Below, piece by piece: positions 2,607 through 29,135 of a DNA stretch of 64,000 nt. Origin of the DNA: Granulicella sp. 5B5 (GTDB lineage: Bacteria > Acidobacteriota > Terriglobia > Terriglobales > Acidobacteriaceae); assembly GCF_014083945.1 (NCBI RefSeq), contig NZ_CP046444.1, positions 2,046,001 to 2,110,000 of the forward strand, read 5' to 3'. Numbering within the stretch: position 1 is the first letter of the stretch; the number at the start of each line of letters is the position of its first letter. Below the pieces are notes generated by a model that was not told the origin of the DNA, did no database searches, and saw only the letters and a list, made by a program, of their open reading frames with translations. The position numbers and the translations under genes are program-made.

Positions 2607-3662
2607 TTAGGACTTCAAAGACGCCATGTCGATGGAGAAGCGATACTTCACGTCTGCTTTGAGCAGGCGCTCGTAGGCCTCGTTCACCTGTTGGATGGCG
2701 ATGACCTCGACATCGGATGTGATGTTATGCTCGCCGCAGAAATCGAGCATCTCCTGAGTTTCCTTGAGGCCACCGATGGGCGAGCCGGAGACACTCTTTC
2801 TGCCGAAGATGAGGCCGAAGGAGCTGAGGCTGAGCGGCTTTTCGGGCGCACCAACGAGGGTCATGTTGCCATCGCGGCCAAGCAGCTGGATGTAGGCGTT
2901 GATGTCGTGGTCGGCGGAGACGCAGTCGAGGATGAAGTCGAAGCTGTTGGCGTGCTTCTGCATCTGCGCAGCGTCCCTGGAGATAACGACCTCGTCCGCG
3001 CCGAGGCGGATGGCGTCTTCAACCTTGCTGGGCGAGGTGGTGAAGACGACGGTGTGCGCTCCCATGGCATGCGCGAACTTGACGCCCATGTGGCCGAGGC
3101 CGCCGAGACCGACGATGCCGACCTTCTTGCCCGCGCCGACTCCCCAGTGGTGCATGGGTGAGTAGGTGGTGATGCCCGCGCAGAGCAGCGGTGCGGCGGC
3201 GGCGAGGTCAAGGTTCGCAGGGATGTGCAGGGCGAAGCGCTGGTCGACCACGATGCTGTCCGAGTAGCCGCCGTAGGTGACGCCGCCGGTGTGCTTGTCG
3301 GGCGAGTTGTAGGTGAGCGTCATGCCGGGGCAGAACTGCTCGAGGCCTTCCTTGCAGGCGGGGCAGGTGCCGTCGGAGTCGACCAGGCAGCCGACACCGG
3401 CGAGGTCGCCGGGCTTGAAACCGGTGACGGCGGAGCCGACCTTGGTGACGCGGCCCACGATCTCATGCCCCGGCACGCAGGGATAGACGGTGGGCATGAC
3501 TGCGGCCCACTCGTTGCGCACTGTATGGAGGTCCGAGTGGCAGATGCCGCAGAAGAGGATCTCAATCTGAACGTCATTCTCGGTGGGATCGCGCCGCGCG
3601 ATCGTGGTGGAGGCTAGCGGCGAGGTGGAGCTGGTTGCGGAGTAGGCTCTCGCGTTGAACAT
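2607..3662 (-). CDS. Zinc-dependent NAD(P) alcohol dehydrogenase (YahK/cinnamyl-type)
   Basis: A 351-residue medium-chain dehydrogenase that should interconvert aldehydes and primary alcohols with NADP(H). Catalytic-zinc residues are visible in GICHSDLHT and GHEIVGRV, and the later Cys lies in LLCAGITTYSP. The Rossmann nucleotide motif is GLGGLGHMGVKFA. One oddity: in the structural-zinc lobe the sequence reads VDSDGTCPACKEGLEQFC, with Asp where YahK has the first of four Cys ligands. The gene is first in the same-strand series adh, araC, akr, and the regulator begins 26 bases downstream. The start matches the usual family N-terminus (MFNARAYSA). Confidence 0.93.
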   Translation of the reverse strand: MFNARAYSATSSTSPLASTTIARRDPTENDVQIEILFCGICHSDLHTVRNEWAAVMPTVYPCVPGHEIVGRVTKVGSAVTGFKPGDLAGVGCLVDSDGTCPACKEGLEQFCPGMTLTYNSPDKHTGGVTYGGYSDSIVVDQRFALHIPANLDLAAAAPLLCAGITTYSPMHHWGVGAGKKVGIVGLGGLGHMGVKFAHAMGAHTVVFTTSPSKVEDAIRLGADEVVISRDAAQMQKHANSFDFILDCVSADHDINAYIQLLGRDGNMTLVGAPEKPLSLSSFGLIFGRKSVSGSPIGGLKETQEMLDFCGEHNITSDVEVIAIQQVNEAYERLLKADVKYRFSIDMASLKS

Positions 3663-3748
3663 GAGACTACGTTAGTCCCTGGCGGCGGCTGTCGCCATGC
3701 AGAGCGCGCCATTGTGCCTGCAAGATGCGCCAGAGTTTTGTGGCGCGG

Positions 3749-4165
3749 CTATTCGCCAATCAGATGCAGAACGATCTCGCGCCGGTGAGGGTGGGTGCGA
3801 TGTTCGAAGAGATAGACACCCTGCCAGGTGCCGAAAACGAGGCTGCCATTCACAACAGGGATGGATAACTGTACCTGTGTGAGAGCGGTCTTCAGATGCG
3901 CGGGCATGTCGTCCGCGCCTTCGTAGTTGTGTTCGTAGGGCCCGTTTTCTGGTGCGATGCGGCTGAAGTACGCCTTGATGTCGCGACGCACGGTGGGGTC
4001 GGCGTTTTCCTGGATCAGCAGCGATGCGGATGTATGGCGACAGAAAACGGTAAGCAGGCCTGTCTGCATCTGCTGGTGCTGGAGCCATTCGCAGAGAGTC
4101 AAGGTGAACTCATATAGGCCCTGGCCGCGGGTGGAGAGGGTGAGGGCGTGGGTGGCTTGCTTCAC
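3749..4165 (-). CDS. YjbQ/UPF0047 family protein
   Basis: A 138-residue YjbQ-family protein (UPF0047), a trimeric fold with weak thiamine-phosphate synthase activity reported for family members; its main role is unsettled. Family hallmarks are GLYEFTLTL near the start, VFCRHTSASLLIQENADPTV, NYEGADDMPAHLK, VFGTWQGVYLFEHR and the ending REIVLHLIGE. I choose a GTG start because a strong GGAGGA sits five bases upstream and the family begins with this strand. A longer reading frame would run back into glyA. The start lies 11 bases after the glyA stop, so the two are probably co-transcribed and translationally linked. Confidence 0.9.
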   Translation of the reverse strand: MKQATHALTLSTRGQGLYEFTLTLCEWLQHQQMQTGLLTVFCRHTSASLLIQENADPTVRRDIKAYFSRIAPENGPYEHNYEGADDMPAHLKTALTQVQLSIPVVNGSLVFGTWQGVYLFEHRTHPHRREIVLHLIGE

Positions 4166-4176
4166 GGCTTCCTCCG

Positions 4177-5439
4177 CTACCCGCGCAGGAAGCCGTAGAG
4201 CGGGAACTGCTCGGCGAGTTCGCCCACTTGGCTGCGGATCTGCGCTAGCTTGTCGGCGTTGTTGCGGTGCTCCAGGGCTTCGGCGATCCACTTGGCAATG
4301 GTGCGCATCTCCGCTTCCTTCATGCCGCGCGTGGTGAGCGCCGGGGTGCCGATGCGGATGCCCGAGGGCTTCATCGGGGGGTTGGTGTCATACGGGATAG
4401 CGTTCTTGTTGACCGTGATGCCGGCGGCACCGAGCGCGGCTTCGGCCTCTGAACCGTAGATGCCTTTGGCGAAGACATCCACGAGGATAAGGTGGGTGTC
4501 CGTGCCGCCGGAGATGATGCGGTAGCCTTCGGCCTGCATGGCTTCGCCGAGCACCTTGGCGTTGGCGACGGTCTGTGCGGCGTAGGTCTTGAACTCGGGC
4601 TGAAGGGCCTCATTGAACGCGACCGCCTTGGCCGCGATGATGTGCATGAGCGGGCCGCCCTGCTGGCCGGGGAAGACGCTGCGGTCGATGCCGGCGGCGT
4701 ACTCCTGCTTGCAGAGGATGAGACCGGCGCGTGGGCCACGCAGGGTTTTGTGCGTGGTGGTGGTGACGACGTCCGCGAACGGCACAGGCGAGGGGTGTGC
4801 GCCACCGGCGACGAGACCGGCGAAGTGTGCCATGTCGATGAAAAGTTTCGCACCGACCTTGTCGGCGATCTGGCGCATGCGGGCGAAGTCGAACTGGCGT
4901 GGGTAGGCGGAGCCGCCGCCGATGATCATCTTGGGCTGCTCGGCGATGGCCTGCGCTTCGAGCGCGTCGTAGTCGATGACCTCGGTGTCCTGGCGGACCT
5001 TGTAGCCGACGATCTTGTAGAGCTTGCCAGAGAAGTTGAGCTTATGGCCGTGGGTGAGGTGGCCGCCGTTGGCGAGGTCGAGGCCGAGGACGGTGTCGCC
5101 GGGGTTGACGAGCGTCATGTAGGCGGCGGCATTGGCCTGCGAGCCGGCATGCGGCTGCACGTTGGCGTGATCGGCGCCGAACAACTCCTTGGCGCGATCA
5201 CGGGCGGCGTTTTCGACGATGTCGGCGTACTCGCAGCCGCCATAGTAACGCTTGCCGGGATAGCCTTCAGCGTACTTGTTGGTGAAGACGGTGCCGGCGG
5301 CCTCCAGCACGGCGCGCGAGACGAAGTTCTCGCTGGCGATCATCTCCAGGCCCTCGTGCTGGCGATGGATCTCGTTCTGGATCTGCTGGTAGATGAGTGG
5401 GTCGGAGGCAGCGAGAGGGGCGTTCAGGTCAATCGGCAT
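4177..5439 (-). CDS. glyA: Serine hydroxymethyltransferase
   Basis: Pyridoxal-phosphate enzyme that converts serine and tetrahydrofolate to glycine and methylene-tetrahydrofolate, the main entry to one-carbon metabolism. The 420 residues match the family length. Visible signatures are [37 protein letters not shown] and the PLP-lysine motif [14 protein letters not shown] (Lys near residue 230). I start at MPIDLNAPL, since SHMTs begin roughly here. An in-frame ATG 66 bases further up would add 22 atypical residues, and neither start has a strong ribosome site. yjbQ follows within 11 bases. Confidence 0.96.
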
Positions 5440-26160: not shown

Positions 26161-26187
26161 AAACCCGCCTTCCCGGCGGGTTTTTTT
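26161..26187 (+). terminator. Rho-independent terminator of osmC
   Basis: CCCGCC, loop TTCCC, GGCGGG, then seven T. It insulates osmC from the ECF sigma operon that begins 49 bases later. Confidence 0.92.
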
Positions 26188-26235
26188 GTGCCTGCTACCT
26201 AACCGTTACTCGAACCCCGCTGTCTAACCCGGCGA

Positions 26236-26850
26236 ATGGAGAATACAGAGCAAGAGGCGATACGGCGAATTCTCGCCGGTGATCGGGATGCGTTTCGCGT
26301 TCTGATGGACCGCCATCTGCCAGCGGTTCTCCGCATGACATACCGCATCACCGGTAATTCGGTCGATGCCGAGGAAGCTGCGCAGGAGGCTTTCCTGCTG
26401 GCTTATCAGAAACTGCCCGGCTTTCGTGAACAGGCAGCCTTCGGAACGTGGGTCTATCGCATCGCTATGAACTGTTCGTTCGATCTCGTCAAGCGCCGTA
26501 CCCGTGATCTCGGCTGGAACGCCGTGCCGCTCGATCCGGGTCCCACTGCTGACAACCTCGCCGTCTCGCGTGGCGCCTCTCCCGAAGCCGAGCTCCTCGC
26601 TGGCGAAGCGCTCCAGCGGCGCGAGCGCGCCATGCTTACGCTTACCCCCATGGAACGCACCGCCTTTGTCCTTCGCCATCTGGAAGAGCAGCCTGTACGC
26701 GACATCGCTGAAGCTCTGGGTGTACCCGTCAACTCCGCCAAGCAGGCCATCTTTCGGGCCGTCGCCAAGCTGCGTCGCGAACTCACGCCCCACTCCTCCA
26801 CGACCTCTGCAGATATCCGCCCACCCGTCTTCGTCAAGGAGTCCCGATGA
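26236..26850 (+). CDS. ECF-type RNA polymerase sigma factor
   Basis: A 204-residue group-4 sigma factor. Sigma region 2 covers about residues 22-90 (RHLPAVLRMTYRITGNSVDA, EEAAQEAFLLAYQKL, FGTWVYRIAMNCSFDLVKRR). Region 4 is about 130-185 (LTPMERTAFVLRHLEEQPVR then DIAEALGVPVNSAKQAIFRA), with the helix-turn-helix intact. It directs transcription of a small regulon. Its stop overlaps the start of the next gene as ATGA, the usual arrangement for a sigma/anti-sigma pair, and the partner here is unusual (see next entry). The ribosome site is weak. Confidence 0.95.
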   Translation: MENTEQEAIRRILAGDRDAFRVLMDRHLPAVLRMTYRITGNSVDAEEAAQEAFLLAYQKLPGFREQAAFGTWVYRIAMNCSFDLVKRRTRDLGWNAVPLDPGPTADNLAVSRGASPEAELLAGEALQRRERAMLTLTPMERTAFVLRHLEEQPVRDIAEALGVPVNSAKQAIFRAVAKLRRELTPHSSTTSADIRPPVFVKESR

Positions 26851-28184
26851 GCCCTCTCGACTGGTTCACCTCCGACCATTTCACCCAGGACGACCTCATC
26901 GCGTATCACCTGCACGATCTCTCCCCGCGCCGTGCGCGCAGGCTCCGCCGCGCTCTTGCCTCCAACACCGCGCTCGCTGCCGAATCCGCTGCGATTCTCG
27001 CAACACTCGAGGCCTTTCCGCGCGACGAGCCAACGCCCGCGCTCGACACGGCCGGGCTCGACCGCTATTGGGCAGCGCTGCGACCGCACCTCGCTGTACA
27101 GGTCGCACCTCCGGCGACAACTTTGCCACAACTGCACGCAGGCTGGATCAGACCGCTCCTCCTCGCCACCGGCGTCACGGCGTTCACTTCAGTTGGAATT
27201 GTGCTGGCGTCGTTGCATTGGAAGCACCAGCAACAGGACACGATGGCCGAAGCTCCACCCAGGCCGGCGCTTATCATCGCACCTCGCACACGGCCTGCGT
27301 TCCCAGACTCAGGGCACACGGTCGCTCACATCCTTCCATCGCTGACGAACGAACGACCTACAGCACCGCTGCCTGTTCTGCACGCGCAGCTTGAACCCTT
27401 ACTTGGCGGCAGCTGGATTGGCCCGCAATCCCCAATGACCGCCGCCTCGTTACCGCCAGCGGAATCGCTACCTATCGCAGTGAGCCCGCCAGTGCCATCA
27501 AGCACCACGTCGAACACTTTCCCTGTTTCACCTGCAGCATCAACAACTCTCAGTACAGCGCAGAACGTCAAGCACCACAACCATCGCGAAGATCTGACAC
27601 TAGGCATCTTCGGCAACCTCATCGCCGGCCGCTCTTGGAACACTGCAAGCACCGTGACTACGGGCAATGACTTCCACGCGCAAGGCGCTACACCGGCTGT
27701 CGGCGCACTGGCATCCTTCCATCAGCAGTTTTCACCCCTCTTCGGCTACAGAATTACCGGCGCCTACTCGCGGCCTACGCTCAGCTATAGCTATCAGGCA
27801 GCAGCCTCGACCGCCGCGCAACCCGGCTCCAGCACCATCACCACGCAGATCCTGGAGTTTTCAGGAACCTACACCGTGCTGGGCCCGCATACGCACCGCT
27901 TGCATACATCTGCCGAGGCTGGTGGCGGCCTGCTCATCTTTCATCCAGCGGAGCCGGGCACATCCATCAACTCCGTCGCGCGGCCGGTTGCCATTGCCGG
28001 TGTCGGCGCGGAGCTTGCAATCACCCAGCACCTGGGTCTGCGCGCTCAATACCGCGCCCTTGTCTTCGAGACCCCCGACTTTCACGATCCGAGCTTTCCT
28101 GTGCCCATCACCACAAGCGTCGTCCTCAGCAGCCAACCCAGCATCGGCATCACCTATCACCTCGGGAAATCACACTCCGATTAG
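26847..28184 (+). CDS. Anti-sigma factor fused to an outer-membrane-like beta-barrel
   Basis: A 445-residue protein translated with the sigma factor (ATGA overlap, AAGGAG upstream). Residues 1-95 resemble the helical anti-sigma domain (DDLIAYHLHDLSPRRARRLRR) but lack the Cys of the zinc form. Residues 102-124 are one transmembrane helix (RPLLLATGVTAFTSVGIVLA). Residues 125-248 are a Pro/Ser/Thr-rich linker ending KHHNHRE. Residues 249-445 are a beta-rich domain with alternating aromatic/hydrophobic strands, ending ITYHLGKSHSD. It shares motif after motif with the stand-alone barrel encoded next: SFHQQFSPLFGY against TFRQSFKPWLGY, and LGLRAQYR against LGMRAEYR. I infer a protein anchored in the inner membrane that carries a barrel destined for the outer membrane. 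Confidence 0.85.
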   Translation: MSPLDWFTSDHFTQDDLIAYHLHDLSPRRARRLRRALASNTALAAESAAILATLEAFPRDEPTPALDTAGLDRYWAALRPHLAVQVAPPATTLPQLHAGWIRPLLLATGVTAFTSVGIVLASLHWKHQQQDTMAEAPPRPALIIAPRTRPAFPDSGHTVAHILPSLTNERPTAPLPVLHAQLEPLLGGSWIGPQSPMTAASLPPAESLPIAVSPPVPSSTTSNTFPVSPAASTTLSTAQNVKHHNHREDLTLGIFGNLIAGRSWNTASTVTTGNDFHAQGATPAVGALASFHQQFSPLFGYRITGAYSRPTLSYSYQAAASTAAQPGSSTITTQILEFSGTYTVLGPHTHRLHTSAEAGGGLLIFHPAEPGTSINSVARPVAIAGVGAELAITQHLGLRAQYRALVFETPDFHDPSFPVPITTSVVLSSQPSIGITYHLGKSHSD

Positions 28185-28269
28185 CTCTCACCTCCGTACG
28201 ACCGAGGCATCCTGCGCAGAGCTTCCGCTGCTGCACCCTTCTCTCGCAAACACAACCCTGGAGCATCCC

Positions 28270-29064
28270 GTGAATCGCCCTGCACCCATCGTCCTTGTTG
28301 GTCGTTCAATCCTCGCCGCGCTTGTCCTCATCTGCTTTTCAGCACAGGGCTGGTCGCAGACGTCCCCCTTCCTCGCGGCCTTCAGCTCATCCAACTCATC
28401 GTTGCCCAGCTCTGAAGCCCCAGCCCCGTCTCTGCCTCCGGCATCTGCGCTCATCGCAGGGCCGCACGTAGAGACCTCCTTGTCGCTCGGCGTGTTCCCT
28501 CAACTCACCGCCACACGCATCACCGCGCCCTCAAACGGTGTCTCCACCGAAAGCCTTACGCCCTCCGCGGGCGTGCTCGGCACCTTCCGCCAGAGCTTCA
28601 AACCCTGGCTCGGCTACGCGGTCAACATGGGCTACACGCGTGCCTCCGAACACTACACCGACAACGCCGGCACCGGTTCCGCCGGCACTGCCAGCAACGT
28701 ATCCATTCCAGCGAACGTATACGAGTTCAGCGCAAGCTACGTTACAGAAAAACACATCACGCCACGGCTTACCGCCTTCGCAGATGTGGGCGGAGGCATG
28801 ATCGTCTTCCTGCCCGTGCATCGTGGAGCCGACGCGATCAACTTCGTCCCGAGCCGCGCCTATGTCCCCTTCACCAACTACCGCCCCGCAGGCGTGGCAG
28901 GCGTCGGCTTCGACTACCGTCTGAACCGGCACCTCGGCATGCGCGCCGAGTACCGTGGCCAGCTCTACAAGTACGCCGACTACGGCAACGCCCTTCCGCG
29001 CAACTACACTGTCACCAGCGAGCCCACCCTCAGCCTCACGTACAACTTCGGTCCCAGCAAGTAG
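28270..29064 (+). CDS. Outer-membrane beta-barrel protein, paralogue of the anti-sigma barrel
   Basis: A 264-residue exported barrel. The start is GTG with TGGAG upstream and gives a signal peptide (IVLVGRSILAALVLICFSAQGWSQ). A Ser/Pro-rich spacer to about residue 60 is followed by a roughly 195-residue barrel with LSLGVFPQLTATRI, GTFRQSFKPWLGYAVNMGYT, FADVGGGMIVF, YRLNRHLGMRAEYRGQLY and the final PTLSLTYNFGPSK. It is clearly homologous to the C-terminal domain of the preceding anti-sigma fusion, so the two arose by duplication. It is probably in the same operon, ending at the terminator at 29076. Confidence 0.88.
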   Translation: MNRPAPIVLVGRSILAALVLICFSAQGWSQTSPFLAAFSSSNSSLPSSEAPAPSLPPASALIAGPHVETSLSLGVFPQLTATRITAPSNGVSTESLTPSAGVLGTFRQSFKPWLGYAVNMGYTRASEHYTDNAGTGSAGTASNVSIPANVYEFSASYVTEKHITPRLTAFADVGGGMIVFLPVHRGADAINFVPSRAYVPFTNYRPAGVAGVGFDYRLNRHLGMRAEYRGQLYKYADYGNALPRNYTVTSEPTLSLTYNFGPSK

Positions 29065-29075
29065 CAGAGACAGCC

Positions 29076-29106
29076 AAGCCCACCGAGGTGGCGGGCTTCC
29101 GTCTTT
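29076..29106 (+). terminator. Terminator of the sigma/barrel operon
   Basis: AAGCCC (29076-29081) pairs with GGGCTT (29093-29098), with an inner ACC/GGT extension. A pyrimidine stretch CCGTCTTTCTCT follows and leads into a heptad tract. Confidence 0.7.
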
Positions 29107-29107
29107 C

Positions 29108-29135
29108 TCTATCCTCCACACTCTATCTCCCGCCT
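29108..29135 (+). repeat. Heptanucleotide-like tract after the operon terminator
   Basis: Units TCTATCC, TCCACAC, TCTATCT, then CCCGCC, in the same position relative to the terminator as the tracts at 14417 and 33008. It is degenerate. The CDF gene stop on the other strand overlaps its end. Confidence 0.5.

Follow-up and report, generated by a model that had tools for sequence, protein, structure and literature searches.

The closest described systems are found in the Bacteroidota. The Dma family, as outlined in PMC13088901 (citing Pardue et al. 2024 PNAS), combines an anti-sigma domain, one membrane helix, a long disordered tether and a C-terminal beta-barrel. Dma genes adjoin ECF21 sigma genes, the proteins are described as spanning both membranes, and the family is said to occur solely in Bacteroidota (PMC13088901, 2026). 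In Bacteroides, deletion of dma2 acts through the cognate sigma gene das2 (PMC13088901). The anti-sigma factor M0N98_03760 of Phocaeicola vulgatus is also predicted to be periplasm-spanning, with a C-terminal outer-membrane barrel; disruption of its gene activates the regulon, and about 15 genes change (PMC9308784, 2022). The M0N98_03760/03761 system and EcfO-Reo of Bacteroides fragilis are alike in this respect (PMC9308784; PMC13114119). The first-pass annotation of the DNA reported here had stated that sensor and anti-sigma factor are separate proteins in known systems, which is contradicted by Dma (PMC13088901) and by M0N98_03760 (PMC9308784).

A protein of this known layout, predicted to extend in one piece from the cytoplasm across the inner membrane and on to an outer-membrane barrel, is encoded in the 3.93-Mb genome of Granulicella sp. 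5B5 (Granulicella group, Acidobacteriaceae). The window, i.e. the whole stretch of 64,000 nucleotides analysed, carries at positions 26236–29064 a three-gene operon consisting of an ECF sigma factor gene, the gene for a 445-residue fused protein, and a gene for an exported homologue of the C-terminal domain of the fused protein. The gene order, domain order, barrel fold and conservation were computed here, as were the promoter and the local relatives of both parts. Features of the locus are as follows.

26163–26187, + strand: terminator-like hairpin and T run of the OsmC gene, aacccgccttcccggcgggttttttt, read directly in the sequence
26198–26227, + strand: ECF-type promoter, CCTAACCG-N15-TGTCTAA, the -10 box ending 8 nt before the sigma ATG (from conservation)
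26236–26850, + strand: ECF sigma factor, 204 aa (Pfam, NCBIfam, tree)
26847–28184, + strand: fused anti-sigma/outer-membrane-barrel protein, 445 aa, with an ATGA overlap with the sigma gene
26886–27089, + strand: predicted cytoplasmic anti-sigma domain, residues 14–81, four helices, zinc-less (AlphaFold2, hhalign)
27150–27218, + strand: inner-membrane helix, about residues 102–124, modelled as 102–132 (hydropathy, AlphaFold2)
27243–27584, + strand: disordered Pro/Ser/Thr-rich periplasmic linker, residues 133–246 (pLDDT, composition)
27585–28163, + strand: predicted eight-stranded outer-membrane barrel domain, residues 247–439 (AlphaFold2, OmpW/OmpA-like fold, OMP_b-brl relatives)
28140–28163, + strand: C-terminal strand SIGITYHL, resembling the BAM beta-signal, x-G-x-x-aromatic-x-hydrophobic (aligned relatives)
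28270–29064, + strand: stand-alone exported barrel, 264 aa, GTG start, signal peptide followed by eight strands (residues 68–260)
29076–29109, + strand: possible weak terminator at the operon end, an imperfect GC hairpin with a weak T tract after it

ORF calls place the three open reading frames, with the ATGA overlap, where the first-pass annotation had them. An OsmC-type gene lies upstream and a convergent cation-efflux gene downstream (names read from translations); the strong hairpin 3′ of the OsmC-type gene sets that gene apart from the operon.

The first gene had been read as an ECF sigma factor, and this is borne out by Pfam matches to regions 2 and 4 (Sigma70_r2, 1e-15; r4_2, 3e-13) and by the NCBIfam sigma70-ECF model, all above their cut-offs. 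The best curated matches of the Granulicella sigma factor are generic ECF families, in libraries that contain no model for ECF21, the group associated with Dma. The sigma factor and the fused protein, adjoining and with overlapping genes, are probably a cognate pair. A start-stop overlap with the sigma gene is also seen in fused homologues.

The N-terminal sequence of the fused protein shows a weak match to the NCBIfam anti-sigma factor model (2e-6, below cut-off). AlphaFold2 predicts a helical domain at residues 14–81, and hhalign aligns the N-terminus with acidobacterial zinc-type anti-sigma factors at a probability of 98.6 and an E-value of 1e-15, in agreement with the anti-sigma-like N-terminus proposed earlier. 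A modelled N-terminal helical domain of this kind is the feature that characterizes class I anti-sigma factors. The zinc motif H-x3-C-x2-C is invariant in six aligned, more distant anti-sigma proteins that partner sigma factors of the family. All seven complete fused proteins lack cysteine, however, and the ZAS motif H-x3-C-x2-C is thus absent from them. The profile match to zinc-type domains, combined with the lack of cysteine, suggests a zinc-less descendant of a zinc anti-sigma domain. A PDB profile search with the anti-sigma domain gave no credible match; matches to the barrel filled the structural search, which hardly probed the N-terminal region. The single membrane helix and the Pro/Ser/Thr linker noted previously hold up in the model, in hydropathy and in homologues: linker blocks have a pLDDT of 37–55, and the seven complete homologues display one membrane helix each and linkers of 125–163 residues.

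The C-terminal domain is modelled with confidence by AlphaFold2, which was run on the fused protein with a 52-row alignment; pLDDT is mostly 93–98 in the barrel strands. Residues 244–441 align structurally with OmpW (Z 19.1, 171 residues, 2.7 Å), OmpA (Z 18.6), NspA (18.4) and the barrel of OprF (18.2). A confident eight-stranded model that aligns with OmpW and OmpA at a Z of about 19 disfavours the soluble beta-sandwich that was considered for this domain. The model and the structural alignments thus uphold the central proposal of the first-pass annotation, that the anti-sigma factor itself bears a barrel of the outer-membrane type. A PDB search with one barrel sequence as query gave no match, and a 50-row profile gave weak matches, the best being OprF (0.003), with avidin fragments at chance level. 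Both the fused and the solo barrel are below the cut-off of OMP_b-brl (PF13505), but the homologue L054, a member of the same HMM-defined family as the window's barrels, passes it (33.4 versus 28.7). Fused proteins keep a beta-signal-like pattern, e.g. SIGITYHL or VIGLTYRF, a few residues before the C-terminus. The wider barrel family occurs in over half of the Acidobacteriaceae genomes searched, and its members often end exactly in an aromatic residue, a habit of outer-membrane proteins. From the model, the full-length fused protein would be inserted into the outer membrane.

By AlphaFold2 and hydropathy, the Granulicella protein has the domain order by which Dma is defined; it also shares with Dma an adjoining ECF sigma gene and a further gene in the operon. 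As the likeness rests on the described layout rather than on sequence comparison, the protein is here called Dma-like in its working and not a member of the family. The Granulicella system differs from Dma in belonging to the Acidobacteriota, in having unfused local relatives of both halves, in the presence of a paralogous barrel in the operon, and in its single strong promoter.

The downstream gene had been described as a signal-bearing homologue of the fused barrel, and both the structure model and the barrel tree agree with this. The solo barrel is modelled with the same fold as the fused barrel, following an N-terminal helix that fits a signal peptide. A paralogous barrel is the next gene in six of the seven complete fused loci and is missing in G004, where a transposase-like gene is found at the expected site (L009, G004:C110). 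Solo barrels are also situated between OsmC and cation-efflux genes, with neither sigma nor anti-sigma gene, in L077 (G014, 3429–4277) and L074 (G302, 4369–5214). The L077 barrel is sister to the solo barrel of the window, which suggests loss of the sigma/anti-sigma pair from the L077 locus.

A search for other proteins of the same anti-sigma, membrane helix, linker and barrel order, proposed in the first-pass annotation, gave eight fused genes. They come from seven genomes (G000, G001, G004, G013, G021 twice, G301 and G329) belonging to three Acidobacteriaceae genera; seven of the genes are complete and one is split by contig ends. A single-sequence query of the named genomes found nothing, and an alignment query found eight loci. 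Outside the Acidobacteriaceae no fused protein was seen in a sample of 396 genomes of the phylum at E 1e-12, a threshold that more distant ones may escape. Comparison of close pairs gives a dN/dS of 0.23–0.25 over the fused barrel, and part of the linker has 0.41; the fused chain is thus under constraint. That the fusion is a product of assembly error or chance read-through joining an anti-sigma gene to a barrel gene is rejected: the same in-frame fusion recurs in the seven genomes and three genera, and every part tested has a dN/dS below 1.

At 23 further loci, a sigma factor of the same family is paired with an anti-sigma protein that has a different C-terminus, with a HEAT gene next in line. 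This Acidobacteriaceae operon (L102–L121, L014–L016), for which no characterization was found in the literature searched, shares the sigma family, the promoter, and a homologous cytoplasmic domain and membrane helix with the fused type. It differs in having a zinc-type anti-sigma factor with a conserved, probably helical periplasmic domain, then a HEAT/TPR protein, and no barrel. A phylogeny of 30 sigma factors places the eight of barrel type together, with support of 92/83 and in 94% of bootstraps; they lie next to Granulicella sigma factors of the helical/HEAT type and inside that type. Within Granulicella the sigma factor is present in 8 of 28 genomes, five with the barrel type and three with the helical type, none with both. 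The barrel tree unites the fused barrels in a single clade (100/100), within a subfamily (99/99) shared with the solo barrels encoded downstream and with a few orphan barrels.

The simplest history, read from these trees, would be one exchange in which the helical periplasmic end was lost and a barrel of the local subfamily was joined on. That there was a single event is somewhat doubtful, given the long branches (G329) and the modest support (92/83). Since both halves are related to unfused Acidobacteriaceae genes, an origin separate from that of Bacteroidota Dma is indicated, and the design appears to have arisen independently in the Acidobacteriaceae, as set against Dma by its description. 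The layout is of a known kind; what is new is the apparently independent origin. The same layout assembled in a distant phylum from local parts suggests that an anti-sigma/outer-membrane tether is a solution that can arise repeatedly, and other fusions of this sort may have escaped notice. The genus also offers a natural before-and-after comparison, with sigma factors 72–75% identical, one kind linked to a periplasmic sensor and the other to a barrel.

The promoter points to a small circuit. The pattern CCTAACCG-N15/16-TGTCTAA is situated 8–9 nt before the start codon, and both boxes are invariant in 13 aligned loci of both types. It is present in 51 of 122 loci, many of which are overlapping copies; the divergent loci G021a and G301 keep TGTCTAA and have a changed -35 box. 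In the whole Granulicella genome the pattern occurs once at 0–1 mismatches, at the sigma operon. With two mismatches there are 8 genome matches versus 11 in a reversed control; this is chance level, and no further promoter targets can thus be claimed. As the sole close copy lies at the operon itself, the operon probably regulates mainly itself, and we infer autoregulation with a small regulon. This differs from the Bacteroidales systems of Phocaeicola and EcfO-Reo, with about 15 genes changed compared to one strong promoter copy here, although the sigma factor may have weaker promoters outside the pattern used. The short spacing from the -10 box to the sigma ATG, conserved in the family, suggests that the sigma mRNA is likely to be leaderless or nearly so. 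With its compact operon and one clear promoter, the system would lend itself to tests of the signal.

The locus is probably a self-regulated ECF sigma/anti-sigma module, Dma-like in its working, that arose within the Acidobacteriaceae when, in a common local sigma/anti-sigma pair, a barrel of local origin took the place of the helical periplasmic end. On the cytoplasmic side of the inner membrane, the N-terminal domain would bind and retain the sigma factor; the helix would anchor the chain in that membrane, and the disordered linker (~115–160 residues) would span the periplasm to reach the C-terminal barrel, assembled in the outer membrane. Barrel assembly or occlusion might, as the first-pass annotation proposed, pull directly on the anti-sigma domain. 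An outer-membrane event, e.g. failed barrel assembly, damage or a ligand, would expose the chain to periplasmic cleavage, and a site-2 protease would then free the sigma factor. The freed sigma factor would transcribe mainly its own operon, giving more sensor and more of the paralogous barrel. In this scheme sigma binding, cleavage, the nature of the signal and what the second barrel does are inferred. The genome encodes an RseP-like M50 protease and three HtrA-like proteases, but both kinds are near universal in controls and their presence says little.

Two familiar systems offer comparisons. In the FecR/FecA system the anti-sigma factor (FecR) is separate from the receptor (FecA), a large TonB-dependent barrel; information from an outer-membrane barrel reaches an inner-membrane anti-sigma factor there as proposed in Granulicella, where one protein with a small eight-stranded barrel is used instead. 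RseA lacks a barrel, and it is DegS that senses OMPs in trans. The RseA/DegS/RseP (sigma-E) pathway and the Granulicella system may have a common logic, in which the state of OMPs controls cleavage of the anti-sigma factor.

A special form of the self-regulated module is possible, though on the unlikely side, in which the signal is nothing other than the BAM-mediated folding of the barrel. By analogy with DegS/RseA, but on one chain, a buried C-terminal strand would keep sigma bound and failed assembly would expose the C-terminus, leading to cleavage. The BAM-signal-like C-terminal strand of all complete homologues, the aromatic ends of their relatives, a second barrel of the same subfamily in the operon output and the HtrA-like proteases are consistent with this, but every barrel needs such a C-terminal signal, whether or not it serves as a sensor. 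Neither a cleavage site nor a PDZ partner was found, and the published Dma accounts, as far as consulted, do not establish the signal of those proteins. The complete proposal, a one-protein gauge of outer-membrane assembly that arose independently of the Bacteroidota by a sensor swap and controls little beyond itself and the second barrel, is unlikely. A role as surface receptor, in which the outer loops bind a ligand or cell-surface component and the resulting conformational change, perhaps via the second barrel, releases sigma, is likewise a minority reading; it would fit the paralogous barrel next in the operon at six of seven complete loci, and the faster evolution of the fused than of the solo barrel (dN/dS 0.25 versus 0.06 in one pair).

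The barrel and the anti-sigma domain could also be split by proteolysis soon after synthesis, leaving no standing tether; the barrel would then be an ordinary small OMP and the anti-sigma part would work alone. In favour are the length, disorder and fast evolution of the linker, and the use of a signal peptide for export elsewhere in the barrel family. The fusion is nevertheless kept under purifying selection in eight of eight barrel-type genes despite a separate exported barrel next door, and PMC13088901 describes Dma proteins as reaching across both membranes, which makes such a split quite unlikely.

The Granulicella genome contains four more distant barrels of the wide family (G000:C1 407633, 530734, 1083472 and 2717472), none of which showed an anti-sigma domain match in the search. 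Some genes of the barrel subfamily are adjoined by sugar transferase-like genes of the exopolysaccharide type (L012, L011 and L010).
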